64,000 bases of DNA from Phycisphaerales bacterium. GTDB taxonomy: Bacteria; Planctomycetota; Phycisphaerae; Phycisphaerales; UBA1924. Made by a program: the position numbers and the translations under genes. The stretch lies in assembly GCA_040221175.1 (NCBI GenBank), contig JAVJVK010000004.1:852268-916267 (forward strand). The letters are read 5' to 3'. This document shows positions 6,622 to 21,761 of this stretch, piece after piece (position 1 is the first letter of the stretch; every line of letters starts with the position of its first letter). Below the pieces are notes generated by a model. The model worked only from the letters and a program-made list of their open reading frames with translations. It was not told the origin of the DNA and ran no database searches.

Positions 6622-6627
6622 ATCCTA
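6622..6627 (-). promoter_or_regulatory. -10-like TAGGAT for the transglutaminase-like gene
   Basis: On the minus strand TAGGAT ends 6 bases before the ATG, with no Shine-Dalgarno in between. Confidence 0.45.
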
Positions 6628-6643
6628 GAGAGCCCGGCTTGTG

Positions 6644-6649
6644 TAGGGT
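6644..6649 (+). promoter_or_regulatory. -10-like TAGGGT for tatD
   Basis: TAGGGT ends 5 bases before the GTG of tatD. It lies back to back with the minus-strand hexamer at 6622-6627. Confidence 0.4.
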
Positions 6650-6654
6650 TGGGC

Positions 6655-7455
6655 GTGATCGATACGCATTGCCACCTGACGTTTCCGCAGTTCGAGGGCC
6701 GCGTGCCCGAGGAATTGGCCGAGGCCGCACGCCACGGCGTGGCCGGCTGCATCACCATCAGCACCACGCCCTCGAATGCCCTGGCCTGCCTGGACCTGGC
6801 CCAGCGCCATCCGAACGTCTGGTGCAGCGCGGGCATCCATCCCCTGTACGCCGCCGAAGGCCCCTTCGATTTCACCCCCTTGCGGCACTGCATCGCCCAG
6901 GACCGATGCGTGGCCTGGGGCGAGTTGGGCATGGACAACCACTACAGCGACCCGCCGCGTTCGCTGCAGGAGCCCGTGCTCATGGAGCAGCTCGCGCTCA
7001 TCCGCGAGATCGATCAGGAGGGCACGGCCGGCGCCGGCAAGCCCGTCGTGCTGCACTGCCGCGAGGCCTTCGACGACCTGATCCCGATCCTCAAGGACAG
7101 CGGCATCGCGGGCGAGCGTTTCGTCTTCCATTGCTTTACGGCCGGACCGAGCGAAGCCAGGCAGGTGCTCGATCTTGGCGCCATGATCAGCTTCACCGGC
7201 GTGGCGACGTACAAGAACGCCCCCGAGGTCATGGAAGCCGCGGTGCTCACGCCCGCCGACCGCATCATGGTCGAAACCGATGCGCCCTATCTGAGCCCCC
7301 AGCCGGTCCGCGGCGAGCGGCCCTGCCGGCCGTGGATGGTCTCGCTGACGGCCAAGCTCATCGCGAAGGCGCGGGGCGAATCGCTCGAAGACTTCGCACG
7401 CGCGACCGATGCGAATGCCGAACGGTTCTTCGGCGTGCGCACGCGTTTCGAATGA
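6655..7455 (+). CDS. tatD: TatD family DNase
   Basis: TatD proteins are metal-dependent exonucleases implicated in DNA repair and turnover. The 266-residue product has the N-terminal IDTHCH metal motif, the GIHPLY loop, the GELGMDNHY segment, VVLHCREAFDD, FHCFTAG, and the late VETDAPYLSP with the metal-binding aspartate, in the right order and at usual length. GTG at 6655 places the HxH motif at residues 5-7, as in the family; TTG at 6649 is the only close alternative. Convergent with the small membrane protein downstream. Confidence 0.9.
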   Translation: MIDTHCHLTFPQFEGRVPEELAEAARHGVAGCITISTTPSNALACLDLAQRHPNVWCSAGIHPLYAAEGPFDFTPLRHCIAQDRCVAWGELGMDNHYSDPPRSLQEPVLMEQLALIREIDQEGTAGAGKPVVLHCREAFDDLIPILKDSGIAGERFVFHCFTAGPSEARQVLDLGAMISFTGVATYKNAPEVMEAAVLTPADRIMVETDAPYLSPQPVRGERPCRPWMVSLTAKLIAKARGESLEDFARATDANAERFFGVRTRFE

Positions 7456-7476
7456 CATGCACCCGTGCGTCGGCGG

Positions 7477-8849: not shown

Positions 8850-9191
8850 CTATCGCGAACGCACTCGCCGGTGGTACGCGTAGGAGCCGCCCGAGTAGTT
8901 GTAGCCGGTGGGTCGGTAGTACGACCGCCCGAACGCGGCGTTGGAGTTGTACGTGTACGTACCCGTGTTGCGGTTCATCGTGTATGGCGACGGCGCGCGG
9001 TACGCGTAGGTCGAGGGCCGGTAGGTGTTGCGGCGACCAAAGTACCCCGTGCTGTAGCGGTTGCTGCCCACGCCCATGTTCACTCGCGTGTTGAAGTCCA
9101 GCGCGTACTGCGCGACGGCTACCGTGGCGCCGAAGGCCAGCGCCACGCACGCACCGGCGAGCAGCCACGTCTTCACGTCTCGACCACGCAT
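8850..9191 (-). CDS. Secreted tyrosine/asparagine/arginine-rich protein, 113 residues
   Basis: An N-terminal signal peptide (TWLLAGACVALAFGATVAVA, cleavage near AVAQ) is followed by about 85 residues rich in Tyr, Asn, Arg, Ser and Thr with a loose SxYxY character (RPSTYAYRAPSPY, TGTYTYN, PTGYNYSGGSYAY). The mature part is low-complexity and probably disordered or surface-associated. ATG shares its A with the TGA of the upstream FKBP gene (TGATG), so the two are coupled. Family not recognised. Confidence 0.65.
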   Translation of the reverse strand: MRGRDVKTWLLAGACVALAFGATVAVAQYALDFNTRVNMGVGSNRYSTGYFGRRNTYRPSTYAYRAPSPYTMNRNTGTYTYNSNAAFGRSYYRPTGYNYSGGSYAYHRRVRSR

Positions 9192-9970
9192 CAGCGCACC
9201 TCCAGCAGCTTGACGTCGCCGATCAGGGTCTCGTTGGGCCCCACGCCCATCTCGGGCTTGCCGAAGGCCCCGTAGGCCAGCGCGGGGGGCACGGCCAGTT
9301 GCCACCAGTCGCCGGCGGACATCGAGCGGATCAGCTCGCGCACGCCGGGGGTCAGGTCGGCCAGTTCGATCTCGACGGCTTCTCCCTCGGTGAACACGCG
9401 GCCGTCAAGAAGGGCGCCGCGGAACGTCACGACGACCCTGGCCGCATCGCCCACCGCCGGGCCGTCGCCCGATTCGATCACCCGATACTGGGCCCCGCTG
9501 GGCAGCGTGACGGCGCCGGGCTGGCTCTTGAACCTGGCGTGGAAGGCCTCGCTGCGCTCCAGGTTGCGGTCGTGCAGGGCCTTGAAGTCGGCGTCGTTCT
9601 GCAGGCGACGCTCGACGATGCGCTCTTCGACGACCTGGTGGGCTGCCGCCAGGGCGTCGTCCATCGCCTGGGCGTCGACCTCGGGCGCCCGACTCGTGAC
9701 CCCCGTCGAGAAGCCCTCGACGATGCGGGCGTTGTCGAGCGTGATGCCGTCGCTCTCGAGCCCGGCGCGCACCTCGTCGCCCAGGAAGTAGCCGATGGCG
9801 TAGGCGACCGCGTCGGCATCGGCCTGGCCGACGCGCTGGGGGTTCTGGGCCTGGTCCTGCTGCAACGGACGGGCGTCGGCCTTGGGCGCCGCGTGCACGA
9901 CGGCCACGCCGACGAGCGCCGCGGCCAGGCCGATGCCCAGCACCGCCGCGGAAGTTCGAGCGTTCTTCAT
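9191..9970 (-). CDS. Exported FKBP-type peptidyl-prolyl cis-trans isomerase
   Basis: A 259-residue protein with a signal peptide (AAVLGIGLAAALVGVAVVHA), an N-terminal helical FKBP_N (Mip-like dimerisation) region with AYAIGYFLGDEV and many charged helices, and a C-terminal FKBP domain: GDAARVVVTFRG, LLDGRVF, PGVRELI, GDWWQLAVPPALAYG. It would help fold proteins in the periplasm. ATG at 9970 is preceded by GGAG at about 8 bases; ATG at 9982 is possible. Coupled to the Tyr-rich secreted protein downstream, which may be a client. Confidence 0.9.
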   Translation of the reverse strand: MKNARTSAAVLGIGLAAALVGVAVVHAAPKADARPLQQDQAQNPQRVGQADADAVAYAIGYFLGDEVRAGLESDGITLDNARIVEGFSTGVTSRAPEVDAQAMDDALAAAHQVVEERIVERRLQNDADFKALHDRNLERSEAFHARFKSQPGAVTLPSGAQYRVIESGDGPAVGDAARVVVTFRGALLDGRVFTEGEAVEIELADLTPGVRELIRSMSAGDWWQLAVPPALAYGAFGKPEMGVGPNETLIGDVKLLEVR

Positions 9971-10487
9971 GGTCTTCTCCATTGCTGTTGCTGCGCTGCG
10001 AGCGCTTCGCCATGCCGCCGGCGACGCACTCTCGATCGCTGCGTTGTTCGGGGCGGCCCATCGCCCCCCGCGTGGTCCACCGGCAACCGCGAGTCCCGGC
10101 AACGTGGAACTGCGCATGCGGCCGCACGCCGTACCGCTCAACGTTAGCTCGATCCCGACGGTATCGCCCGAGGAAGGAGGCCGTCACGCGGCGCCGGGGG
10201 CAACGCAGCGCTGAAGGCGGGAAGGACCATGTAAGTTGGTCGTTGTGTGGGCGTTCATCGTCCCCCATCGACGGGAGAAGCCCGTAGAAGGCTCCGCCGT
10301 GACACGGCAATGCCACCCCGCCAGCAGGGCGACAAAGCAGGGCGACAAGGCGATCCCGTCACCCGGCCGGATCGGCCAGCATGGCCTCGGGGCGCTCACC
10401 GAGCCCGGCCCGCCACTGGGCGGCGGCCTCACGGGCCGGTTTTTCGCGCGTGCTCCACCCGAGCTTCTTCCTGGATCCCGCCCCGAT
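9971..10487. other. 517-base gap with no recognised gene
   Basis: Between the FKBP start and the end of the dockerin-tailed gene at 10488 no frame shows a recognisable protein or a start with a Shine-Dalgarno. Apart from the hairpin at 10405-10444 and the unassigned FKBP promoter, I see nothing specific. Confidence 0.5.
10405..10444 (+). terminator. Hairpin with T-run
   Basis: CCGGCCCG (10405-10412) pairs with CGGGCCGG (10432-10439), followed by five T. The T-run orients it on the plus strand, yet no plus-strand gene precedes it, so it may stop antisense transcription or mark a lost gene. Confidence 0.35.
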
Positions 10488-11879
10488 TCATGGGCAGCCG
10501 GCCTGGAAGGCGTTCTGAAAGGCCAGAAAGTCGAAGATCGTCAGCTCGCCGTCGCCGTCGAAGTCGGCCTCGCTCCTCCCGTCCTGGAAGAGGTTGGCGA
10601 AGACGAGGAAGTCGAAGATCGTGAGCGAGCCGTCGAGGTCGAGGTCTGCCTCGCAGATGAGGCAGCCGAGGTCGTAGGCGTGGACGAGGCCGACGGAGAA
10701 GCCGCCGAAGACTGCGTCGCCGGCTCCGATTGCAACATGGGATCCATTGGTCACCGTATCGATGCCGAAGCCGCCCGTACGGCCGGCGGCATCGATGCGT
10801 GCGGCCTGACTCCACGTGCCATCCGGGTCGCGACTGAATATGTATGAAGCGCCGTTGACGGAGCCAGATGTCTCGTCAACTGTGGCTGCGGTTAGCAGGC
10901 CGCCACTCATGTCAAGAGGAGAAAACCGATGGCCCTGGCCAGCCGGTTCATGCGTGATCTCTTGCGACAATATCCATTCCGTCCCATCGTGCTCGTAGAG
11001 ATACACGACACCCTGATCGACAAACGATCGATCGGCGAGCCCCCCCCCGATTGCGAGAGTGTGGCCGTTGTAGAGGATGCCGCCGCCGAACAACGGCCCA
11101 GAATCGATGGGCTCCGAAACATCGGGCGGCACGATTCGCTGGTCGAATTCAAACTCATCTTCGGCCGAGCGCCGGTACACAAAGAGTGATCCGCCAAGGA
11201 ACATTTCAGTCTCGTCAGCTGGCGCTCCAACAAACAGCCACTCGCCACTCAGCAGGAAATCGAGACCAAATTCTGCTGATCGAGGGAGGGGCGATGGAAT
11301 CGTCTGCGCCAGATGCCAGCCATCGGTGGACTTCTCATAAATAAGCAGTTGCTGTAACGGGCGATACTGGCGCAGGATCGCTGTGTCGTTCTCCAGCGCC
11401 ACCACGCCCCCAAAGCCCTGTCGTAACGTTGGTTCGCTCGGGCGAAACTGAAAGACTTCTCGCCATTGCTCCCCGTCGTGCTCATAGAGATACGACTTGC
11501 CAGCCGGCTCACCATTGACAACGGCCCCGCCAGCACCCACGAGCAACCGATCGCCATCGCGGCTGAACGATCCACCGAACCCCGAGCCAACCGTGATGTC
11601 CGGCGGCACGATGTGCTGCGTGCGTTGCCACAAGCCGTCGCCATCGAGCTCAAACACGTGCAGCGCGCCGGTACCGCAGTCGAACGGATCCGGGCAGAGT
11701 GTGGGCTCGCCAGGGTTGCCGATGAAGAGGAACCGGTCGTCCATCAACATCCTGGAACCGAAGCTCCCGCCCTCGGGCATGCCCAGTGGCTCGAGCGTCT
11801 GCGGCTCGCATTGCGAGAAAGCGGCCGCTGCGGGGCCAAGAAGGGCCATGATGCCAACGGCGCTGTTGGGGATGCGCAT
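10488..11879 (-). CDS. Secreted beta-propeller-like protein with duplicated dockerin-like tail
   Basis: A 463-residue secreted protein. A signal peptide (VGIMALLGPAAAAFSQ) is followed by repeated blades of the type 'LLVGAGGAVVNGEPAGKSYLYEHDG' in short form: GALHVFELDGDG, SYLYEHDGEQW, LFVYRRSAEDEF, VVYLYEHDGTEW. This resembles FG-GAP/integrin-like propeller repeats that record a quantity and a display string. The C terminus has two calcium-loop halves, DLDGSLTIFDFLVFANLF and DFDGDGELTIFDFLAFQN, ending AGCP, the tail shared by five proteins in this window. It should be exported and anchored outside. Start at ATG 11879, with GAAGG upstream; a longer open frame upstream lacks a signal peptide. 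Confidence 0.8.
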   Translation of the reverse strand: MRIPNSAVGIMALLGPAAAAFSQCEPQTLEPLGMPEGGSFGSRMLMDDRFLFIGNPGEPTLCPDPFDCGTGALHVFELDGDGLWQRTQHIVPPDITVGSGFGGSFSRDGDRLLVGAGGAVVNGEPAGKSYLYEHDGEQWREVFQFRPSEPTLRQGFGGVVALENDTAILRQYRPLQQLLIYEKSTDGWHLAQTIPSPLPRSAEFGLDFLLSGEWLFVGAPADETEMFLGGSLFVYRRSAEDEFEFDQRIVPPDVSEPIDSGPLFGGGILYNGHTLAIGGGLADRSFVDQGVVYLYEHDGTEWILSQEITHEPAGQGHRFSPLDMSGGLLTAATVDETSGSVNGASYIFSRDPDGTWSQAARIDAAGRTGGFGIDTVTNGSHVAIGAGDAVFGGFSVGLVHAYDLGCLICEADLDLDGSLTIFDFLVFANLFQDGRSEADFDGDGELTIFDFLAFQNAFQAGCP

Positions 11880-11974
11880 GCCTTCATTGTGACGCAAACG
11901 GGGAACGATTGCAAGGCCATTCCACGCCGCGCCCGTCTCCGATAATGGTCCATCGCTCCCGCTGCGAAAGGATC

Positions 11975-12174
11975 GATGCACGCGACACCTGGCTCATCGA
12001 GAACGACGTCGCCTGCAACAACGCCAACCTCAACGGCGACGGGAACGTCGATACGTTCGACATGGCCATGTTCAACGACCTGTTCTCGCTGGGCGCCCGC
12101 CGGGTGGACATGGACATGGCGATACCGACGCAGCGATCTATCAGAACGCCTCCGACGCGGCGACGGGGCCGTAG
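11975..12174 (+). pseudogene. Frameshifted fragment of a type I dockerin domain
   Basis: The plus strand reads ACNNANLNGDGNVDTFDMAM then FNDLFSLGA, a typical first dockerin half with the calcium ligands D/N-G-D-G-x-V-D. After VDMDM the frame must slip to give GDTDAAIYQNASDAATGP and a TAG at 12172-12174, which is a second dockerin half. No protein body or credible start lies upstream; the fragment begins abruptly next to the divergent gene start at 11879. This is a broken C terminus left by deletion or rearrangement. The motif type (VDTFDMAMF) differs from the FDFLAFQ type of the intact genes. Confidence 0.6.
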
Positions 12175-12201
12175 GCCTGCCGCCCCAGAGCGTCCCTCGC
12201 C

Positions 12202-12226
12202 ACGGCCCGCCCGCGCGGGCCGTTTC
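12202..12226 (+). terminator. Strong hairpin terminator after the dockerin fragment
   Basis: ACGGCCCGC (12202-12210) pairs perfectly with GCGGGCCGT (12215-12223) around a CCGC loop, followed by TTTCT. It lies 28 bases after the dockerin fragment's stop and is probably its surviving terminator. Confidence 0.65.
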
Positions 12227-12368
12227 TCGTGGCCGTGGGGGCACGCCCACCCCTCCGCGTCCGCGGCCGGAGCTGGTGGGGGCGTTCGGGGGCGGGCCGC
12301 GGACGCCCGGGGGACACGCCCGGACGCCGAGGGACCGCCCGCCAAAGCTCGCACGCCATCTTTCAACA

Positions 12369-12536
12369 CTCGGACCTCGTCCCCCAACGCTCGGAGCCCA
12401 CCCCCGGACGCTCGGCCGTGGAGTCCGAACGCTCGGAGCCCGTCCCCGAACGCTTGGACCTCTCCCCTGAACGCTCGGACCTCGTCCCCGAACGCTCGGA
12501 GTTCGTCCCCGAGCGTTCGGAGTTCGAGTCCGAGCG
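12369..12536. repeat. 21-bp tandem repeat (minisatellite), eight units
   Basis: Eight imperfect 21-base units follow the pattern CTCGGACCTCGTCCCCGAACG. The starts CTCGGAG and CTCGGAC alternate and the ends are mostly GAACG or GAGCG. Because 21 is divisible by 3, both strands stay open: plus reads a 7-residue unit like SEFVPER, minus one like LRAFGDE. It lies 227 bases before the start of the helix-turn-helix/AP2 gene, and the plus frame is continuous with that gene. Whether it is translated is unclear; I treat it as a non-coding repeat. Confidence 0.75.
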
Positions 12537-12762
12537 GATTGCCGGCGGGGCCCGACCGCCCCCACGACGCGCCAGGGCGGTTTTTCAGGGTTTTCACGGT
12601 TGGGTTCTGGATGGAAAGGGCCATGTTCGGGTTTTTGGGTTTGGGTGGGCCTTGACGGCACGCTTCGTGGCCGCGACGCGCAGCATCTGCCGAGCCCGCG
12701 ACCAGAGCCCCGGCGGCCGGGATCGGCCAAAGCCGGCCCCATCGAACGCCGATAAGCCCGGC

Positions 12763-15390
12763 ATGACCCAGAAGCAGACCGATCGATGCGCCCCCGCCCA
12801 GCCCGCCACGGACCCGGCCAACGACCCGGCCAATGACCCGGCCAGCGAACCGACCAACTCGCCCACCGGCGAGCCGGCGACCTACACGCTCAAGCAGGCC
12901 GCGGCGATGGTCGGCCTGACGCCCGACGCGTGGGCGAGCTGGCAGAAGCGCGGGCTGCTGCCCAGGGGCACGATCGGCCGAGGCGGCGAGCACAACCGCC
13001 CGGTCCGGCTCTTTACGCAGGCCGAGGTCGACGCCGCCCGCGCGGCCGTGGAGCGAACGGAGCCGGCCACGCCCGAGCACACGATCTCGTACAACGAGGT
13101 CGTCGACATGCTGGGCATCTCCAAGTCGCGCATGTACGAGATGATCAAGAGCGGCCGCTTCCCCCCCGGCCGCTGGACGGCGCCCGACAAGGCCACCGGC
13201 ACGGGCGGGCGCCGCAAGATGTTCAGCCCTGCCGAGGTCGACCAGGCCCGCGCGGCGCTGGCCGCGTTCATGAACCAGGGGCCCACGATCGATGGCGAGC
13301 CGGCCGTGACGCTGCAAGAGGCCGCCCAGCGCATCGGCCTCTCGCGCACGCAGTGGTACGCCTGGCAGAAGAAGGGCTGGGTTCCCATGGGCACGCCCCG
13401 CACGTGGCCGGGCTCCATGGGCAAGGAGCAGGTGTACACCCGGGCCCAGATCGACGCCCTGGAGGCGTCGCTGCAACGCGGCGAGCACCCGGGCGCCGGC
13501 CACGTCGCGACCGAGCGGCACACGATCACCCACCAGGAGGCGGCGCGCCTGGCGGGCGTGGGCGTCCACGCGTGGCACGAGCTGAGCCAGCGCGGGCAGC
13601 TGCCCGAGGGGCGCTGGACGCCCAACCCCAAGGGAACCGGCAAGGGCGGCCTGCGCAAGCTGTACACGCCCGAGGACGTCGAGGCCCTCAAGCGGGCCAT
13701 GGCAAGGCTCGAGGCCGAGCGGCGGCCGACCATCGACGGCAGGCCGGCCCTGACCGTGCTGGAGGCCTGCGAGAAGATCAACATCTCACGCCCGCTGTGG
13801 TACCTGTGGGATCGCAAGGGCTGGCTGCCCGAGGCCCACAAGGCCGCCCGCGACGCCAGCGGCAAGAGCATCAACCTCTACACGCCCGAGCAGATCGACG
13901 AGCTCAAGGCCTCGATCGACCGGGGCGAGCACCCGGGCGCGCAGGGGCGCGGCACGGCCGAGCACACCATCACCCGCGCCAAGGCGGCGAAGATGCTGGG
14001 CATCACCGTGTCGATGTGGTCGACCTGGGAGAAGGAGGGGCTGGTGCCTAGGGGCGTGCAGCCGCCGCTGTCTCCCACGCTGGGCACCGGCGGCAGCAGG
14101 CACGTGTGGACGCCCGCGCAGGTCGAAGAAGTGCGCGCGAAGGCGACCGAGCTCGGCATCCTCGAGCCCCCCGCCACGCCCGAGCACACGCTGACGCGCG
14201 CCGACGCCGCCGCGCTCGTGGGCATCTCCGAGGCCACGTGGACGTACTGGTGCCGGCGGGGCGTGGTCCCGCGCGGGTGCTGGCGCACGAACCCCAAGGG
14301 CTCGGGCCACGGCGGGCTGCGGCGGATGCATTCGCACGAGGAAGTACGACAGGCCCGGGCGGCGCTGGACGCCATCGGCTTCGGCCACGCCGAGGACGCC
14401 ACCGACGCGCACACCGTGAGTCAGGCCGAGGCGGCCAGGCTGCTGGGCATCGAGACCGGATCGGTGCCCAAGTGGGAGAAGCGGGGCCTCTTGCCCAGGG
14501 GCGCATGGGGCCGGCGCGGCAAGCGCGGCTCGCTGCAGAAGCTCTACACGCCCCAGCAGGTCGAGGAGGCCCGCAGGGCGGCGATCGCGCAGGGCGTCCG
14601 CTGCTTCGCCAAGGCGACGAGCGAGCACACCCACACCCGCCAGCAGGCGGCGCGGTTCATCGGCGTGCCGTTTTCCACGTGGTCGCACTGGGAGCACCAG
14701 GGCCGCACGCCGGTGGGCGCGTGGGGACGTGCCCCCGACGGCAAGAGCCGCTGCAAGATGTACACGCTCGCCGAGCTCGAGGCGTTCGCCGAGGAACTGG
14801 AGAAGCTGCACAAGCCCTACGCCGACCCGGATCGACCGGGCGTGGTCCGCGTGCCGATCCGCACCGGCAAGGGACGGATGGAGGCGCTCATCGATTCGGG
14901 CGACCTGCATCTGGTCGAGGGCAAGAACTGGAACCTCTCCGAGCGGGCCGACGGGTCTCCAACCGCGGGCGCGGTCGTCCTGTCGACCATGACCGGGCGG
15001 ATGAAGCCGCTCAAGCAGTTCATCACTGGCGTCAGCGGCCGGAGTTGCTGCGTCCGCCACGCCAACGGCGACTTCCTGGACTGCCGGCGCGAGAACCTGG
15101 TCGTGCTGGACCTCGCCCAGAGGTCGCACGGGAACCGGAAGATCAAGGTGCGGGCCGGCTACGAGACGACGTCAAGGTACAAGGGCGTGTGTTGGGACGA
15201 AGATCGCGGAAAGTGGCTGGCCCAGATCAGCAAGGAGGGCGTGCACCGGCACCTGGGCCGCTTCGACGACGAGATCGACGCCGCCGACGCCTACGACAAC
15301 GCCGCGCGCGAGCTCTTCGGCGAGCACGCGTTCCTGAACTTCGACGGCATCGTGGACCGGACCGAGGAGGAGCCCAAGTCCGCCGCGTAG
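12763..15390 (+). CDS. Mosaic DNA-binding protein: nine tandem helix-turn-helix units, degenerate HNH, AP2 domain
   Basis: After a Thr/Pro/Asp-rich arm (residues 1-39), nine units of 66-77 residues run from about 40 to 690, starting near 40, 106, 182, 253, 330, 401, 475, 550 and 622. Each has a MerR/excisionase-like helix-turn-helix (HTITRAKAAKMLGIT, then a W..W and a KRGLLPRG wing) and a short helix after YTP or FTP. Units 3 and 5 share the spacer IDG(E/R)PA and the end RGEHPGA, so units 2-3 and 4-5 look like a duplicated pair. Residues about 691-800 resemble an HNH homing-endonuclease domain (RHANGDFLDCRRENL) in which the usual DH is RH and LDN is LDC, so nuclease activity is doubtful. The end is a good AP2 domain (RYKGVCWDEDRGKWLAQI, then LGRFDDEIDAADAYD). 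I know of no named family with this layout. ATG at 12763 lacks a strong Shine-Dalgarno, and the frame is open for 500 bases upstream. Confidence 0.85.
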   Translation: MTQKQTDRCAPAQPATDPANDPANDPASEPTNSPTGEPATYTLKQAAAMVGLTPDAWASWQKRGLLPRGTIGRGGEHNRPVRLFTQAEVDAARAAVERTEPATPEHTISYNEVVDMLGISKSRMYEMIKSGRFPPGRWTAPDKATGTGGRRKMFSPAEVDQARAALAAFMNQGPTIDGEPAVTLQEAAQRIGLSRTQWYAWQKKGWVPMGTPRTWPGSMGKEQVYTRAQIDALEASLQRGEHPGAGHVATERHTITHQEAARLAGVGVHAWHELSQRGQLPEGRWTPNPKGTGKGGLRKLYTPEDVEALKRAMARLEAERRPTIDGRPALTVLEACEKINISRPLWYLWDRKGWLPEAHKAARDASGKSINLYTPEQIDELKASIDRGEHPGAQGRGTAEHTITRAKAAKMLGITVSMWSTWEKEGLVPRGVQPPLSPTLGTGGSRHVWTPAQVEEVRAKATELGILEPPATPEHTLTRADAAALVGISEATWTYWCRRGVVPRGCWRTNPKGSGHGGLRRMHSHEEVRQARAALDAIGFGHAEDATDAHTVSQAEAARLLGIETGSVPKWEKRGLLPRGAWGRRGKRGSLQKLYTPQQVEEARRAAIAQGVRCFAKATSEHTHTRQQAARFIGVPFSTWSHWEHQGRTPVGAWGRAPDGKSRCKMYTLAELEAFAEELEKLHKPYADPDRPGVVRVPIRTGKGRMEALIDSGDLHLVEGKNWNLSERADGSPTAGAVVLSTMTGRMKPLKQFITGVSGRSCCVRHANGDFLDCRRENLVVLDLAQRSHGNRKIKVRAGYETTSRYKGVCWDEDRGKWLAQISKEGVHRHLGRFDDEIDAADAYDNAARELFGEHAFLNFDGIVDRTEEEPKSAA

Positions 15391-15441
15391 CACGCGGGCG
15401 ACCGCCCTCGGTCTCCCCTTCGTCTCTCCGTCTCTTCCCAA

Positions 15442-17331
15442 CTACCTCCGCCCGAACATCTTCTCCAGGTCGCGCATCGTCAGCCGCACCGAGGTCGGCC
15501 GGCCGTGCGGGCAGCTCGCGCTGCGTTCGACCTTCTCGCGGAGTTCCAATAAAGCGCTGAGCTCCTGGTCGCTCAGGGCGTCGCCCGCCTTGACGGCGGC
15601 CTTGCAGGCCATCATGTCCAGGACCTCGCGCAGCGCGTCCTCCTGGTCGCGGGGCAGGTCGTCCTTTTCCAACAGATCGCCCATGAAGTCGGCCGGGTCG
15701 ACGCCTCGGCTGAACAAGAGGCTCGGGAAGGCGTGCACCGCCACGCGCGTGGGGCCGGCGCTCGTGGCGTCGATGCCCAGCGTTGCCAGGATGGGCGCCA
15801 GGGCTTCGAGCTTCTCGGGCGCGTCGGCGACGCCGATCATGGCGGGGGTCAGGAGCCGCTGGCTCTCCAGGGTTCCCTGGCTGGCGACGCGGCTGCGCAA
15901 CGCCTCGAACATGACGCGCTCGTGCAGCGCGTGCTGGTCGATGATGACCACGCCGTCCTCGTCGTGGGCAACGAGGTAGCTGTCGCGGATCTGCATGGCC
16001 TGGATCGAATGGGCCCGGCGCATCCACGGGCCGTCGGGGGCGCGGTCGATGCCGGCGGGCGCCGCGTCCTTCGTTTCGACCTGCGCTCCGGGCGTCCTCG
16101 CCTCGGGGGGCTCGGGTCGGTTCAGGACCGCGTGCACCTCGGCCTCGGTGAATCGGTTCGCCTGTTCACGCGCGGCCTGGGTCAGGTCGCCGGCCTGCGG
16201 TCCCCGGAAGATGGCGCCGTCGGCGGGCACGAAGGGCTGCCAGGGTCGCGCGATGCCGCCACCGAAGGACCCGACGTCGTCGAGCGAGGCCGTCAGGTCC
16301 GCGCCCGCCAGCGCCTCGCGCACCGAGCCGTGCACCGCCGCGTGGATGGCCGACGAATCGCGGAAGCGGACTTCCGCTTTCGCCGGGTGCACGTTCACGT
16401 CGACCATCGAGGGGTCCACGTCGATCAGCAGCACGGCGACGGGGTGGCGGCCCGGCTCGATGAGCCCGCGGTAGGCCTCTCGCAATGCGTGCGCAATGCT
16501 CGCGTCGCGGATCACGCGCCCGTTCAGCACGATCCACTGGCCCTTGGCGTTGCCGCGCGCCGCGTGCGGGCGGCCGACCAGGCCCCAGAGGTTCACGTTG
16601 TACGTCTCGGCGGCCAGGCCCTTCGCCTCGATCATCGCCTCGGCCAGGTCCTGGCCCAGGATCGACCGCACGCGCTGCGGGGCGCTCTGATCCGCCGGCA
16701 GGTCGAGGGTGGCGTGCCCGTCGCACACGAGCGTGAAGCCGATGGCCGGGCGGGCGAGGGCGAGTCCCTTGACGGCGTCGACGCAGCGCTGCTTCTCGGT
16801 CTGGGCGGTGCGCAGGAACTTCCGCCGCGCGGGCGTGTTGAAGAACAGGTTGCGCACCTCGATGACCGTGCCCGGAGCGCCGCCGGCGGGACGAGGCCCG
16901 TCGACGTCCTTGCCCTCGACGCGCAGCTCGCAGGCCTCCCGCGCCCCCCGCGTGCGCGAGCGGATGCGCAGCCGGCTGACGCTCGCGATGCTCGCCAGCG
17001 CCTCGCCGCGGAAGCCCATCGTCGCCACGGCGTCCAGGTCGTCGGGCGAAGTGATCTTGCTGGTCGCGTGCGGGGCAACGGCCATCGGAAGCTGGTCGGG
17101 GCTCATGCCGCAGCCGTCGTCGGCCACGCGGACCAGCTCGATGCCGCCGGCCTCCAGCTCGATGCGCACCTTCGTGGCCCCGGCGTCCAGCGCGTTCTCG
17201 ACGAGTTCCTTGACCACCGAGGCCGGCCGCTCGACGACCTCGCCCGCGGCGATCTGGTTGATGACCAGGGGGTCGAGCGCGCGGATCTCGGGCAGCGTAT
17301 CGATGGCCTGGTGCGTGGAAGGAGCGGGCAT
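15442..17331 (-). CDS. mutL: DNA mismatch repair protein MutL
   Basis: MutL couples mismatch recognition by MutS to strand removal. The N-terminal GHKL ATPase shows the AAGEVVERP motif with ENALDAGA, DDGCGM, and TMGFRGEALASI. The C-terminal domain carries DQHALHERVMFE, matching the DQHA-x2-E-x4-E endonuclease motif, plus ACKAAVKAGD and CPHGRP, so this is the nicking type found in bacteria without MutH. Two ATGs compete: 17340 and 17331. A TACGAT hexamer overlaps the first, so I place the start at 17331 (leaderless), giving 629 residues. Divergent from the CysQ-like gene, convergent with the AP2 gene. Confidence 0.95.
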   Translation of the reverse strand: MPAPSTHQAIDTLPEIRALDPLVINQIAAGEVVERPASVVKELVENALDAGATKVRIELEAGGIELVRVADDGCGMSPDQLPMAVAPHATSKITSPDDLDAVATMGFRGEALASIASVSRLRIRSRTRGAREACELRVEGKDVDGPRPAGGAPGTVIEVRNLFFNTPARRKFLRTAQTEKQRCVDAVKGLALARPAIGFTLVCDGHATLDLPADQSAPQRVRSILGQDLAEAMIEAKGLAAETYNVNLWGLVGRPHAARGNAKGQWIVLNGRVIRDASIAHALREAYRGLIEPGRHPVAVLLIDVDPSMVDVNVHPAKAEVRFRDSSAIHAAVHGSVREALAGADLTASLDDVGSFGGGIARPWQPFVPADGAIFRGPQAGDLTQAAREQANRFTEAEVHAVLNRPEPPEARTPGAQVETKDAAPAGIDRAPDGPWMRRAHSIQAMQIRDSYLVAHDEDGVVIIDQHALHERVMFEALRSRVASQGTLESQRLLTPAMIGVADAPEKLEALAPILATLGIDATSAGPTRVAVHAFPSLLFSRGVDPADFMGDLLEKDDLPRDQEDALREVLDMMACKAAVKAGDALSDQELSALLELREKVERSASCPHGRPTSVRLTMRDLEKMFGRR

Positions 17332-17338
17332 CCGCGGC

Positions 17339-17344
17339 ATCGTA
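17339..17344 (-). promoter_or_regulatory. -10-like TACGAT for mutL
   Basis: TACGAT on the minus strand lies 7 bases before ATG 17331 and covers the alternative ATG at 17340. Confidence 0.4.
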
Positions 17345-17359
17345 GGAGCGGCCCGGGGC

Positions 17360-17365
17360 TACGCT
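17360..17365 (+). promoter_or_regulatory. -10-like TACGCT for the CysQ-like gene
   Basis: TACGCT ends 5 bases before ATG 17371, no Shine-Dalgarno. It lies 15 bases from the divergent mutL hexamer. Confidence 0.45.
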
Positions 17366-17370
17366 GGTCG

Positions 17371-18402
17371 ATGCCGACCAACGCCAACACCATCGACACC
17401 GCCGCCGCCGCGCGGGCCGCCCGCGAGGCGGTCTTCCAGGCCGCCGCCGTCTGCCGGGCCGTGCAGGCCCGCCTGGACGACCTGCGGGCCATCACCAAGG
17501 ACGACAAGAGCCCGGTGACCATCGCCGACTTTGCCAGCCAGGCGGTCGTGGCCAAGGTCCTCCAGCAGCACCTGGGCGCCTCGATCGTGCTTGTGGGCGA
17601 AGAGGGCAGCGAATACCTCCGCCAGCCCGAGCACGCGGCCCACCTGAGGGCCGCCCTCGAGGCTGCCCACGAGGCCTGGCCCGAGGCGACCGAGGAGGAG
17701 TTCCTCGATGCCATCGACGCGGGCGATGCCGAGCCCACGGGCGACCACTGCTACTGGACGCTGGACCCCATCGACGGCACGAAGGGCTTCCTGCGCGGCC
17801 AGCAGTACGCGGTGGCCCTCGCATGGCTGGACCACGGCGTGCCAAGCGTGGGCGCCATGGCCTGCCCCAACCTGCCTACCTCCCACGATGCGCCCCTGGA
17901 CGCGGTCGACCCGCACGGCAGCATCTACCTGAGCGTCGCCGGCGAGGGCACGCTCGAGGCGCCGCTGCACGACTCCAAGGCCGACGCCACACGCATCCTG
18001 CGCAAGGACCTGGCGCCCGACGAGCCCGTGAGCGCGTGCATGTCGGTCGAGAAGGCCCACAGCAGCACCGACGACACGGCGCGCGTCATGGCGCTCGTCG
18101 GCCCCGAGCGCGAGCCGGCCAGGCTCGACAGCCAGTGCAAGTACGCCGTCGTCGCCCGCGGCCAGGCCGACGCCTACCTGCGCCTGCCCACCAGGAAGGG
18201 CTACGTCGAGCGCATCTGGGACCACGCCGCCGGCTCGCTGGTGGCCACCGAGGCCGGCTGCGTCGTCAGCGACGTGGCGGGCATGCCCCTGGACTTCAAG
18301 CACGGCAAGGGCCTGGAGCGCAACCGCGGCATCGTCTGCGCCCCGCCCAGCGTGCACGAGCGGGTGATCCGGGCGATCAAGGAACTGGGGCTGCTGGGCT
18401 GA
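17371..18402 (+). CDS. 3'(2'),5'-bisphosphate nucleotidase / inositol monophosphatase family (CysQ/HAL2-like)
   Basis: A 343-residue lithium-sensitive phosphatase. Metal and substrate motifs are visible: VGEEGSE (about 75-81), DPIDGTKGF (132-140) and WDHAAGSLVATEAGC near the end. The insert between the first two motifs and the KSPVTIADF opening resemble HAL2/CysQ enzymes, which remove the by-product 3'-phosphoadenosine 5'-phosphate during sulfate assimilation. Other inositol-phosphatase substrates cannot be excluded. No sulfate-assimilation gene is adjacent. Preceded by TACGCT 5 bases before ATG. Confidence 0.85.
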   Translation: MPTNANTIDTAAAARAAREAVFQAAAVCRAVQARLDDLRAITKDDKSPVTIADFASQAVVAKVLQQHLGASIVLVGEEGSEYLRQPEHAAHLRAALEAAHEAWPEATEEEFLDAIDAGDAEPTGDHCYWTLDPIDGTKGFLRGQQYAVALAWLDHGVPSVGAMACPNLPTSHDAPLDAVDPHGSIYLSVAGEGTLEAPLHDSKADATRILRKDLAPDEPVSACMSVEKAHSSTDDTARVMALVGPEREPARLDSQCKYAVVARGQADAYLRLPTRKGYVERIWDHAAGSLVATEAGCVVSDVAGMPLDFKHGKGLERNRGIVCAPPSVHERVIRAIKELGLLG

Positions 18403-18411
18403 GCGGGCAGT

Positions 18412-19707
18412 TCAGCCCTCGCGCACCACCACCAGCACGCACCGATCATCGACCACGCGTTCCTCGCTGAAGGCCCCCACCGCGACGCGGATGGCCTCGG
18501 CGATGGCGTCGGGGTCGGGCTCGGCGTGCTTGATGGCCTCGTCGAGGCGCTCGACGCCGAACTGCTCGCCGTGCTCGTCGAAGGCCTCGATGATGCCGTC
18601 GGTGTAGAGCACCATGCACTCGCCGGGGTGCAGCATGCCCGCGGCGCCAACCGTGTCGAGGTGCTCGAGGATGCCCAGCGGCGGGCTGGCGTCGCCGGTG
18701 ATGGCCTCGACCGAGCCATCGCGCCGGCGCACCCGCGGCACGTGATGGCCGGCATTGGCATACACGAACTGGCCCGTCTGCGGATAGAAGCCCACGAAGA
18801 TCGCCGTCACGAAGCGTTCGCCCTGGAAGCTCTCGAACAGCACGCGGTTGACGTCGGTCACCACCGTGCTGGCGGGCCTGCCAAATGCGCGATACGCCAG
18901 CAGCACGCTTCGCAGCATGCCCATCGCCACCGACGCGGGCGGGCCGTGGCCCGAGACGTCGGCCACCACGGCGCCGAACTGCCCGTCGCCGAAGTCGCGG
19001 AAGTCGTAGTAGTCTCCGCCCACTTCCTCGCTGGGCTCGTACCACACGGCGAATCGCAAACCATCGACCCGCGGCGGGGCCGGCGGAATGATCGATCGCT
19101 GGGCGTCCAGGATCGACTCGAGCGAATGGCTGAGACGGGTGTTCAATGCCGAGACGCGCTCGACGAGTTCCTCACGCTCGCCGGCGAGGGCCATCATGTT
19201 CGAGAGCTGGGTCAGTGTCAGCAGTTGATGGTCTTGAAGGTCCCACGGTGAAGAGCGAAGGAACAAGGCCCATTCGGTGGCGCGCCCGCCTCGGTAGATC
19301 GGCAGGACCACCGCGTGCTCTGGCAACTGCCGATCGCCCAGCACGGTCGGCAGGCGACGCTCGCCGGACAGGTCGAGCGTGGCCGGACGCTGGTGGCGGG
19401 CAAACTCGTCCAGCAAGGGCGCCTTGTGGAGCGCGGGCTCGTCCGCCAGTCCCCATCGTCCACCGGGGATGACCGTGGCGGGATCCAGCTCACCCTCGGG
19501 TAGATCTACCGCGGTGCAAACGCGATACCAGCCGGGCCGATCCGGCTCCTCGAGGAAATTCATGAATACTTCGGCGCCGAACATCGAACGCATGCGCCGC
19601 AGCAGGCGATAGCCCTGCTCGGCCAGCGAACTGGCCTCGCTGGCCTCGCGCAAGAGCTCCACGTGATCGATGGAACTCTGTTCGGCGGTCGGAAGCGGCG
19701 GGCTCAC
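18412..19707 (-). CDS. PP2C-type (SpoIIE/RsbU) phosphatase with N-terminal GAF-like sensor
   Basis: The C-terminal half (about 220-430) is a PPM phosphatase: EEVGGDYYDF, AVVADVSGHGPPASVAMGM, YANAGHHVPRV and LYTDGIIEA supply the metal aspartates. The first 200 residues look like a GAF-type sensor joined by a coiled linker. Such proteins dephosphorylate a STAS-domain antagonist in partner-switching cascades; a STAS protein and an RsbW-like kinase lie 5-7 kb away. The start is taken as GTG at 19707, because TACCCT lies 5 bases upstream and there is no Shine-Dalgarno; a TTG two codons earlier is the alternative. 431 residues. Confidence 0.88.
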   Translation of the reverse strand: MSPPLPTAEQSSIDHVELLREASEASSLAEQGYRLLRRMRSMFGAEVFMNFLEEPDRPGWYRVCTAVDLPEGELDPATVIPGGRWGLADEPALHKAPLLDEFARHQRPATLDLSGERRLPTVLGDRQLPEHAVVLPIYRGGRATEWALFLRSSPWDLQDHQLLTLTQLSNMMALAGEREELVERVSALNTRLSHSLESILDAQRSIIPPAPPRVDGLRFAVWYEPSEEVGGDYYDFRDFGDGQFGAVVADVSGHGPPASVAMGMLRSVLLAYRAFGRPASTVVTDVNRVLFESFQGERFVTAIFVGFYPQTGQFVYANAGHHVPRVRRRDGSVEAITGDASPPLGILEHLDTVGAAGMLHPGECMVLYTDGIIEAFDEHGEQFGVERLDEAIKHAEPDPDAIAEAIRVAVGAFSEERVVDDRCVLVVVREG

Positions 19708-19712
19708 CCGCA

Positions 19713-19718
19713 AGGGTA
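19713..19718 (-). promoter_or_regulatory. -10-like TACCCT for the PP2C gene
   Basis: On the minus strand TACCCT ends 5 bases before the GTG at 19707. Confidence 0.4.
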
Positions 19719-19743
19719 CACAGACCCCATTGCGCCCGTCGAC

Positions 19744-20631
19744 TCAGCCCAGTAGATCCAGCACCCGCTCCTGGTTCGATAACCCCACGCTGATCGCCGC
19801 CAGCGTCGCCTCGGTCCGGATGTTCCCGCGGATCAGCCGTGCCGATTCCTCGGCGAAGTCCGCGTCACGGATCAACGAACGGGCCGAGGAGAGCGATTCG
19901 ATCTGTGCGCCGATCGCGCCCAGCTTTGGCGCGATGACGTGCCGACCCAGCGCGCCCAGTGCCCCGAGTTGCGCGGTCACCTGCTCGCGGGCACGGCCCA
20001 GGATGCGCTGGGCCAGCCCGGGATTCTCCAGCAACGACCCCGATCCGCCCGAGGCCAGCGCCGACATGGTCACCTTCACCGCGTCGGGGTCGACGATGAC
20101 GTCGCCCGTCTCGGTCACCTCGGGCTCGATGTCGTATACCTCGCCCAGCTTTGACGGATCGAGGCTCGCGATCTGTTCGGAAGAACCATCCCCGAGCGGC
20201 ACACTGAACGTGCCGTCCAACAGCTTCTGTCCGTTGAACTCGGCTCCGCTCGACAGGCGATCGATCGTTTGCAGAATCGAGTCCATCTCCAGTTGCAGCG
20301 CATTTCGCTCGCCTTCGGACAGGCCGGCGGTGTTGGCCGCCGTCACCGCCAGGCCCTCGGCCTCGATGAGCAAGCCGGAGATCTCGGCGATGGCGCCCTC
20401 AGCGGTATTGATTACCGCCTGGCTTCGATCGAGCGCTCTGGATTCGGCTTCGAGCGACGAGAGTGCGGCGCTGATGGCCTCGCTCGAGATCAACCCCGCC
20501 GGGTCGTCCGAGCCGCGATTGATCCGCAGGCCGGTCGACAGACGCTCCAGCGCGGTGTTGCGATCCGCCTGGTTCTGTCCCAGGATCCGCAGGCCCATAT
20601 TGACCGACGAGCCAAATCCGATCGGTTGCAT
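19744..20631 (-). CDS. Flagellin
   Basis: A 295-residue flagellin. The N-terminal D0/D1 helices are clear (GLRILGQNQADRN, ALERLSTGLRINRGSDDPAG), and so is the C-terminal partner (RDADFAEESARL and ISVGLSNQERVLDLLG). The central D2/D3 region is very short, so the filament would be thin and smooth. A Shine-Dalgarno-like GGGAGGG precedes ATG 20631. No other flagellar genes are in the window. It follows ftsY by about 200 bases on the same strand, with a hairpin between them. Confidence 0.92.
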   Translation of the reverse strand: MQPIGFGSSVNMGLRILGQNQADRNTALERLSTGLRINRGSDDPAGLISSEAISAALSSLEAESRALDRSQAVINTAEGAIAEISGLLIEAEGLAVTAANTAGLSEGERNALQLEMDSILQTIDRLSSGAEFNGQKLLDGTFSVPLGDGSSEQIASLDPSKLGEVYDIEPEVTETGDVIVDPDAVKVTMSALASGGSGSLLENPGLAQRILGRAREQVTAQLGALGALGRHVIAPKLGAIGAQIESLSSARSLIRDADFAEESARLIRGNIRTEATLAAISVGLSNQERVLDLLG

Positions 20632-20828: not shown

Positions 20829-21761
20829 TCAGGCCGGTTCAGCGGCTGGGCCAAAAAGGCCTTCGACGAATGCGCTGGGGTCGAAGGGCTGGAGGTCCTC
20901 GGCGGTCTCGCCCACGCCGATGAACTTCACGGGCACGCCACAGGCCTCGCGCACGGCGATGACCACGCCGCCCTTGGCCGTCCCATCGAGCTTGGTGATC
21001 ACCAGTCCCGATAACGGCACCGCTTCAGCAAAGTGCTCGGCCTGGGCGACGGCATTCTGGCCGCTAGTGGCGTCGAGCACCAGCAGCGTCTCGTGCGGCG
21101 CACCCTCGATGCTCTTGCCGGCGACCTTGGCGATCTTGCCGAGCTGCCGCATGAGCGATTCCTGGGTCTGCAAGCGTCCGGCGGTGTCGAGGATGACGAC
21201 GTCGACCCCCCGCGACGCCCCGGCTGCGCACGCGTCGAACGCGACGGCCGCCGGGTCGCCGCCCTGCTGGCCGCGCACCACGTCCACGCCGATGCGTTCG
21301 GCCCAGACTTCGAGCTGCCGCACGGCCCCGGCCCGGAACGTATCGCATGCGCCCAGCAGCACGGTCTTGCCATCTTCACGCAACGCGTGGCACAGCTTGG
21401 CGATGGTGGTCGTCTTGCCCACGCCGTTGACGCCCGTGACCAGCAGCACGGTGGGCCCCTGGTCGGCGTACGCGATGCTCAGGTCTTCCGGCGGCCACAT
21501 CGCCGAGACGCTCTTCTTGAGAAAACCGATGGCGTCCTCGCCCTTCTCGAGCTTGCCGGCCTTGACGTCGGCGCGGAGTCCATCGATGAGGCGACGCGTG
21601 GCCTTCACGCCCACGTCGGCACGCAGCAGGACGGCCTCGATCTCCTTGATCAGCGACTCGTCGAGCTTGCGGCCGCGCACCAGGTCGCGCAGGGGGTCGA
21701 TGAGCACCGACCGCGTGCGCTTGAGCGAGTCCTTGATCTTGCGGCCCAGCGACTTCAGCAC
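20829..21761 (-). CDS. ftsY: Signal recognition particle receptor FtsY
   Basis: FtsY docks SRP-ribosome complexes at the membrane. The NG domain is complete: the four-helix N domain at about 20-90, then G1 TGVNGVGKTTTIAKL, DTFRAGAVRQL, the DTAGRLQ motif and ITKLDGTAKGG. The acidic A domain of enteric FtsY is missing, as in many bacteria; the start is basic (KSLGRKIKDSLKRTR). The start is GTG at 21761, inside the end of nusB (7-base overlap), so the pair is coupled. 310 residues. Confidence 0.95.
   Translation of the reverse strand: MLKSLGRKIKDSLKRTRSVLIDPLRDLVRGRKLDESLIKEIEAVLLRADVGVKATRRLIDGLRADVKAGKLEKGEDAIGFLKKSVSAMWPPEDLSIAYADQGPTVLLVTGVNGVGKTTTIAKLCHALREDGKTVLLGACDTFRAGAVRQLEVWAERIGVDVVRGQQGGDPAAVAFDACAAGASRGVDVVILDTAGRLQTQESLMRQLGKIAKVAGKSIEGAPHETLLVLDATSGQNAVAQAEHFAEAVPLSGLVITKLDGTAKGGVVIAVREACGVPVKFIGVGETAEDLQPFDPSAFVEGLFGPAAEPA

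Follow-up and report, generated by a model that had tools for sequence, protein, structure and literature searches.

WhiA is described as a degenerate homing endonuclease joined to a helix-turn-helix (HTH) domain and acting as a transcription factor (PMC3781837), and the plant AP2 factors are thought to derive from homing endonucleases (PMC3794426); the AP2 domains of Apicomplexa are treated in PMC2904766. Another kind of precedent is offered by BldC, Xis, and RdfS, small winged helix-turn-helix (wHTH) proteins reported to align head-to-tail on DNA (PMC5859096, PMC11963761), with hydroxyl-radical footprints placing BldC on tracts spaced by a helical turn (PMC5859096), and RdfS forming head-to-tail oligomers (PMC11963761). 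Here, we describe a gene located in a stretch of 64,000 nucleotides (hereafter the window) of contig JAVJVK010000004.1 from an environmental planctomycete, a Phycisphaerales bacterium. Its open reading frame, 12763..15390 on the forward strand, encodes a single chain of 875 residues (aa), in which nine wHTH units precede an HNH-like region and a C-terminal AP2 domain. This architecture was not found in the open-access literature (most subscription papers lying outside the scope of that search). On a slight balance of probability, we regard the product as a non-cutting DNA-binding protein of the HNH-AP2 homing-endonuclease lineage, combining an AP2 anchor with a chain of wHTH units. It would represent a further homing endonuclease turned DNA-binding protein, beside WhiA and the plant AP2 factors.

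The window protein resembles the HNH-AP2 homing endonucleases by its HNH-like region and AP2 domain, with 29–47% identity in the best 80 of 149 viral loci and 30–44% in the best 20 of 55 phage records, but none of the 55 phage records covers 80% of the protein. Two features distinguish its family from these enzymes: the Asp-His pair of the HNH active site is broken in all 20 family domains (four close orthologues included), and a wHTH array is present, whereas no wHTH unit of the family type was detected at E 0.01 in 79 viral HNH-AP2 frames taken from the best 80 loci, some of them near-identical. The protein thus shares the homology of the HNH-AP2 homing endonuclease class and lacks its Asp-His pair.

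WhiA is comparable as a DNA-binding regulator in which a degenerate homing endonuclease is joined to an HTH (PMC3781837), but it combines LAGLIDADG with one HTH, whereas the present family combines HNH-AP2 with up to nine wHTH units. No WhiA or LAGLIDADG model occurs among the best 25 of 28 Pfam families, and the proteins to which the nuclease-derived part can be aligned are of the HNH-AP2 kind. The plant AP2/ERF factors share the AP2 domain, but the window family retains a disarmed HNH and has gained wHTH units; to our knowledge, plant AP2 factors are devoid of an HNH. Judged from these alignments, the ancestry is that of an HNH-AP2 protein, to be classed under neither WhiA nor the plant AP2 factors. 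Finally, the units are of the same wHTH type as BldC, Xis, and RdfS of the HTH_17 group, both by profile and by structure, but the latter are small separate proteins, whereas the window protein carries nine covalent units and an HNH-AP2 tail.

The nine wHTH units

A sequence-only reading of this DNA had proposed nine consecutive MerR/excisionase-like units with a duplicated pair, and the analysis bears this out. The nine units (starts in Table 1) have 57–61 residues each, with a start-to-start spacing of 66–76 residues. Pfam HTH_17 matches the whole protein at 3.7e-30 with six stretches significant alone, Pfam MerR_1 at 3.1e-19 with three, and the NCBIfam excisionase model TIGR01764 at 6.7e-11, its single stretches all being below the cut-off, and the PADLOC mad1 model, an independent profile of 60 residues, matches nine stretches at 1.8e-50. 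Together, these matches indicate that the count of nine is not an artifact of our self-built profile. In the AlphaFold2 model, an identically ordered set of three helices recurs nine times, for the most part with a predicted local distance difference test score (pLDDT) of 70–86, together with a two-strand wing (strands of at least three residues) in seven units, the wing being partial in units 2 and 6. Structural matches of unit 9 extend from HiNmlR, a MerR-type protein, and the excisionase RdfS (Table 1) to BldC (Z 6.3) and Xis (Z 6.0), and no match at E ≤0.001 was returned by Foldseek against the PDB for either model (runs with 4 and 20 sequences). Both the wHTH fold and membership in the HTH_17/excisionase-type profiles are therefore found.

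The duplication of units 2-3 into 4-5 is supported by the unit tree, which pairs unit 3 with unit 5 as sisters (0.91) and, weakly, unit 2 with unit 4 (0.66), and the linkers alternate in matching types, in agreement with it. Linkers between units measure 9–15 residues and look long enough to reach across one DNA turn.

The HNH-like region and the AP2 domain

The Pfam HNH match is weak in the window protein (0.014) and clear in two relatives (4.8e-11 and 1.6e-11) from a run covering the relatives other than the G016b (L021) and G275 proteins. The D-H-x-N-G stretch of typical relatives reads R-H-A-N-G in the window protein, so that the RH-for-DH change pointed out from the sequence is real, and Asp is gone in 19 of the 20 family domains, the position being occupied by Arg (5), Thr (5), Gly (4), Ile (2), and Ala, Val, Cys, or Asp (one each). 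His is kept in 14 of the 20, and Asp and His never occur together, while viral HNH-AP2 relatives have Asp in 77/79 and His in 78/79 cases. The altered residues are the metal holder and the general base in HNH enzymes of the I-HmuI type. Judging by its active site, the HNH-like part does not represent a functional HNH endonuclease of known type. The companion change, LDC for LDN, is also real but is not diagnostic: Cys replaces this Asn in 17/20 family domains and in 8/79 viral relatives, and since the viral relatives listed with LDC keep their Asp-His, it gives no sign of a loss of activity. The last Asn is kept throughout (20/20 family domains and 79/79 viral relatives).

The HNH-AP2 part has a pLDDT below 50 in the 4-sequence AlphaFold2 run and a mean of 82 in the 20-sequence run. 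Among the matches listed by VIA-align, only a wHTH unit and the AP2 domain were covered and no HNH structure appeared, so that the HNH-like identity rests on sequence. The AP2 domain is clean, scoring 33.3 bits at a Pfam cut-off of 33.3; the family profile retrieves plant AP2 structures, with WRI1 at 6.5e-21, and the model matches plant TEM1 with a Z of 9.4.

As a separate observation, an HNH-AP2 protein on a viral contig (L163) has an altered HNH motif, IFVNKDDLDF, and apparently two AP2 domains; from its sequence, it is possibly a second, independent disarmed nuclease.

Table 1. Features of the gene and of its upstream region (window coordinates)
Feature	Coordinates	Strand	Remarks
Whole gene	12763..15390	+	875 aa; nine wHTH + HNH-like region + AP2; net charge +18
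N-terminal tail, aa 1-39	12763..12879	+	25/39 positions variable among four orthologues; residues 1-37 pLDDT <50
wHTH unit 1, aa 40-96	12880..13050	+	Profile and AlphaFold2 model
wHTH unit 2, aa 106-166	13078..13260	+	First half of duplicated pair
wHTH unit 3, aa 181-237	13303..13473	+	Second half of duplicated pair
wHTH unit 4, aa 253-313	13519..13701	+	Sister: unit 2
wHTH unit 5, aa 329-385	13747..13917	+	Sister: unit 3
wHTH unit 6, aa 401-461	13963..14145	+	Profile and AlphaFold2 model
wHTH unit 7, aa 475-535	14185..14367	+	Profile and AlphaFold2 model
wHTH unit 8, aa 550-607	14410..14583	+	Two strongly different versions among four orthologues
wHTH unit 9, aa 622-679	14626..14799	+	Adjoins HNH-like region; HiNmlR Z 8.2, RdfS Z 7.5
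HNH-like region, aa 691-803	14833..15171	+	Active-site stretch 15055-15099 = RHANGDFLDCRRENL
AP2 domain, aa 804-860	15172..15342	+	Most conserved part of the protein
GCCGATAA box	12748..12755	+	7 bp 5' of ATG; exact in 5/12 family members, near-exact in 2 more
Dyad CGGC-CAAA-GCCG	12724..12736	+	Upstream of ATG; present in all four orthologues

Distribution and layouts of the family

The family is small and patchy in the order Phycisphaerales, with 13 of the 400 genomes drawn, and its HNH-AP2 part was matched in 18 of the 400 at 1e-10. At the level of the phylum, 6 of the 392 genomes drawn match at 1e-20, and G754 is additionally listed for partial matches with one stop that were not inspected. 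Both searches scored six candidates per genome, so that these counts are lower bounds. Of the other five among the 18, those of G007, G034, G250, and G258 are short HNH-AP2 proteins with an intact Asp-His, and the match in G029 contains one stop and was not read.

The layouts comprise nine, six, three, two, or one wHTH units ahead of HNH-AP2, or a doubled module. Nine units are found in four genomes, a six-unit protein and a separate three-unit protein both in G016, two units in G390, and one unit in G057, and the doubled [wHTH-HNH-AP2] layout, with one wHTH per module, occurs in G035, G240, G072, G065, G387, and G275. In these calls, a G072 match of only 17 residues was discarded, and the least significant unit retained (E 0.057) belongs to the six-unit protein. 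Stages with 1, 2, 3, 6, and 9 readers thus coexist with doubled modules. Doubled proteins at L112, L111, L113, L114, and L019 have, by reading, a fibronectin type III-like tail; Pfam did not show a fibronectin type III domain in L112 and L019.

Within the genus, the gene is present in four of seven genomes. A scan with the unit alignment, scoring 150 candidates per genome, retrieved nine units from every one of the four carriers and none from the three other genomes, with an additional weak isolated match in each of G001 and G003. Orthologues in the three carriers besides the window's own genome are 75–83% identical, and their starts align with the ATG at 12763. Two named organisms carry the gene, one recorded as 'uncultured Phycisphaeraceae bacterium' and the other, a metagenome assembly, as 'Phycisphaerae bacterium'; their contigs are those of G003 and G001.

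Selection and history of the gene

The gene is under purifying selection and is more loosely constrained than mutL, the ratio of nonsynonymous to synonymous substitution rates (dN/dS) being 0.29–0.46 over six orthologue pairs vs 0.10–0.16 over three mutL pairs. The corresponding ratio of proportions (pN/pS) is 0.18 for AP2, 0.38 for the HNH-like region, and 0.47 for the units. Variable positions amount to 27/45 of the exposed recognition-helix positions, 181/486 of the other unit positions (P 0.004), and 9/57 in AP2. Retargeting through diversifying selection was considered for these fast recognition helices and rejected, since exposed helix-1 positions are variable to an equal extent (29/45).

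Divergence at four-fold sites is 0.27–0.40 for the gene vs 0.33–0.45 for mutL, slightly lower in all six pairs, and the grouping of G000 with G001 and of G003 with G005 is favored by 165 of 232 informative sites in the gene and by 57 of 112 in mutL. This mutL-like divergence and the shared majority grouping indicate that the gene was probably already present in the common ancestor of the four carriers and has stayed in the genus; a recent horizontal arrival is unsupported by the same data.

Furthermore, every unit position clusters with itself across the four species in the unit tree, which places the nine-unit layout before these species. The tree holds 58 units, two short ones being omitted (one each from G016 and G057), and several of its inner nodes are weak. 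The nine positions cluster together (0.81), apart from a second cluster (0.86) made up of four of the five units that represent the G016 six-unit protein, so that arrays seem to have grown at least twice; this suggests growth by internal duplication, separately in two lineages. Site patterns are clustered along the gene (66 runs vs 105 ± 5 in 10,000 shuffles), and those of unit 8 are split 46 to 1. A mixing between alleles is offered here as a suggestion only, since the conflicting sites of mutL (57:31:24) imply that the clustering may partly reflect uneven rates.

Proposed mode of action and alternative explanations

In the mechanism that we propose, the AP2 domain, chosen as the anchor because it is the least changed part, would find or fix a GC-rich site, and the HNH-like part would clamp the nearby DNA without cutting. 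The nine tethered wHTH units would then line the neighboring DNA head-to-tail, turn after turn, and the chain would bend or coat it. By analogy with BldC and related proteins, which act as separate molecules, one unit per turn would amount to a coverage of ~95 bp, and nine units with their 9–15-residue linkers could cover about nine DNA turns; the head-to-tail chain itself is drawn from the same analogy. Since the units differ from species to species in their DNA-facing residues and AP2 is steady, the units probably contribute more to grip and to the recognition of DNA shape than to the reading of a long, fixed sequence. The most likely role is that of a regulator or of a local chromosome-architecture protein.

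A bolder version, which we put forward tentatively and hold with clearly less confidence, is a single-chain nucleoprotein filament, in which the AP2-anchored protein would wrap its nine units around about nine turns without oligomerising, its length being set genetically by unit duplication (1 to 9), so that a single bacterial order would hold natural rulers of several lengths. Provided that the units indeed align along DNA, the family would provide a length series for the bending or coating of DNA by wHTH filaments in the absence of free oligomerisation.

Of the interpretations offered in the sequence-only reading, a relic homing endonuclease converted into a multivalent DNA binder is the best supported, given the absence of the Asp-His combination in 20 domains, the purifying selection, and the nine wHTH units; the chromosome-organising role included in it is possible. 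The other interpretation, a recognition factor for a long repeated target, is unsupported, since the DNA-facing unit residues drift and the 21-bp arrays described below are likewise present where the gene is missing.

Several points weigh against a non-cutting, AP2-anchored wHTH chain. The full-length AlphaFold2 model has a predicted template modeling score (pTM) of 0.29 and is uninformative on the packing of units against each other. Z scores below 8 may reflect a mere common arrangement, so that the likeness to RdfS, BldC, and Xis leans also on the HTH_17 match. The net charge is 0 for unit 5, +1 for unit 9, and −4 for AP2, and these low values mean that DNA binding by every unit is not required. 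The drift of the recognition helices is that of an ordinary surface and carries no special signal, helix 1 varying in the same way. The altered HNH active site could still be capable of nicking, and the patchy and shifting distribution of the gene also fits a selfish gene.

Among the alternatives, an ordinary sequence-specific transcription factor comparable to WhiA, in which one or a few wHTH units and AP2 would read a promoter and the other units would be spare, is unlikely but fares best. It has a precedent in WhiA itself, a degenerate homing endonuclease with an HTH (PMC3781837), and the conserved upstream dyad and promoter-like box of the gene could constitute an autoregulatory site. The nine units are nevertheless kept position by position in the four orthologues, which argues against most of them being spare, and the recognition-helix surfaces are unconserved.

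We deem somewhat less probable still that the protein is a selfish homing-type endonuclease with an unusual active site and a very long target read by the wHTH array. Such an enzyme would fit with the HNH-AP2 ancestry, with the occurrence of the gene at different places in four of seven genomes of the genus, and with the retention of His (14/20 domains) and of the last Asn (20/20), but Asp and His are together in none of the 20 domains, and the mutL-like four-fold divergence and grouping speak for residence since the four-genome ancestor. Moreover, a precise empty site could not be drawn, and Rfam, which holds intron families, gave no match in 9000–18000 (inteins were not searched for).

Lastly, a role as an anti-phage component, suggested by the matching of nine stretches to mad1 of the MADS system, is highly improbable because that 60-residue profile resembles a generic excisionase-type wHTH, and because, of ten neighboring frames searched (UvrB not among them, and at least one, 6625–7458, probably antisense to TatD), eight had no match at 0.001, mutL gave a weak restriction-enzyme match (8.1e-04), and 20829–21761 matched a 45-residue mad8 piece (8.7e-05) and a RecD piece (9.9e-04), so that mad1 is accompanied in these ten frames by this weak mad8 piece and by no other mad gene, the Pfam names in the neighborhood being amidohydrolase, UvrB, TatD, FKBP, FG-GAP, MutL, and SpoIIE.

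Upstream elements and genomic location

The dyad upstream of the ATG carries changes on both sides in G005 that preserve the pairing, and its G001 version is one base shorter; on this pattern, it is a possible operator. The GCCGATAA box is a possible -10 element by its sequence and position. The box recurs ahead of distant family members and may belong, as a -10 element, to a class of leaderless promoters in this clade. The pattern of box plus ATG gives 8 matches in the genome vs 4 in a reversed control, and GATA[AC] is found within 21 bp upstream of 12 of 350 predicted genes.

The gene lies tail-to-tail with mutL in G000 and G005, at distances of 51 and ~70 bp, respectively. It is ~4 kb from mutL in G003, where genes named from frame reading as formylglycine-enzyme-like, phosphatase-like, and sulfatase-like lie between the two, and in G001 it is flanked by an AraC-type (HTH_18) gene on one side and a DUF1254 gene on the other, the mutL site of that genome being without the gene. 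These differing places indicate that the gene or its surroundings have been rearranged. No counterpart of the DUF1254 neighbor of G001 turned up in the other six genomes of the genus, hence the lack of a drawable empty site. In G003 (L017 7212–7272; 14033 onward), the mutL 3' end is present a second time, as a stretch of ~60 bp (~80% identical) just upstream of the gene; it has the same direction as the intact mutL ~6.8 kb away, an arrangement that resembles an insertion of DNA at the 3' end of mutL.

Tandem arrays of 21 bp

A tandem array with a period of 21 bp, that is two helical turns, lies upstream of the gene at 12344–12553. Intergenic arrays with a period of 21 bp (or 42/63), of ~3 to 14 copies and with a unit sequence that differs per array, were seen at L045, L046, L047, L051, L052, L053, L060, L061, and L062, as well as at L064, L039, L018, L027, L028, L022, L019, and L020. 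In samples from ten genomes, the period is 21 bp or a multiple in 26 of 29 intergenic arrays vs 9 of 39 within genes predicted by a simple codon-usage caller of our own making; one G035 array has a period of 168, one genic array of G003 was counted twice through overlapping loci, and the window array was scored as genic since the caller extended a gene over part of it. Genomes without the wHTH gene also have such arrays (four in 216 kb of G004 and one in 14 kb of G006), with none in 99 kb of G002. The array at 12344–12553 was considered as a target of the protein and rejected as a specific partner, because arrays with unrelated units are frequent, including in genomes that lack the gene. A literature search on 21-bp arrays returned nothing. 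In the same genome, L053 also contains, at 18897–19901, a coding tandem repeat with a period of 147 bp and ~7 copies.

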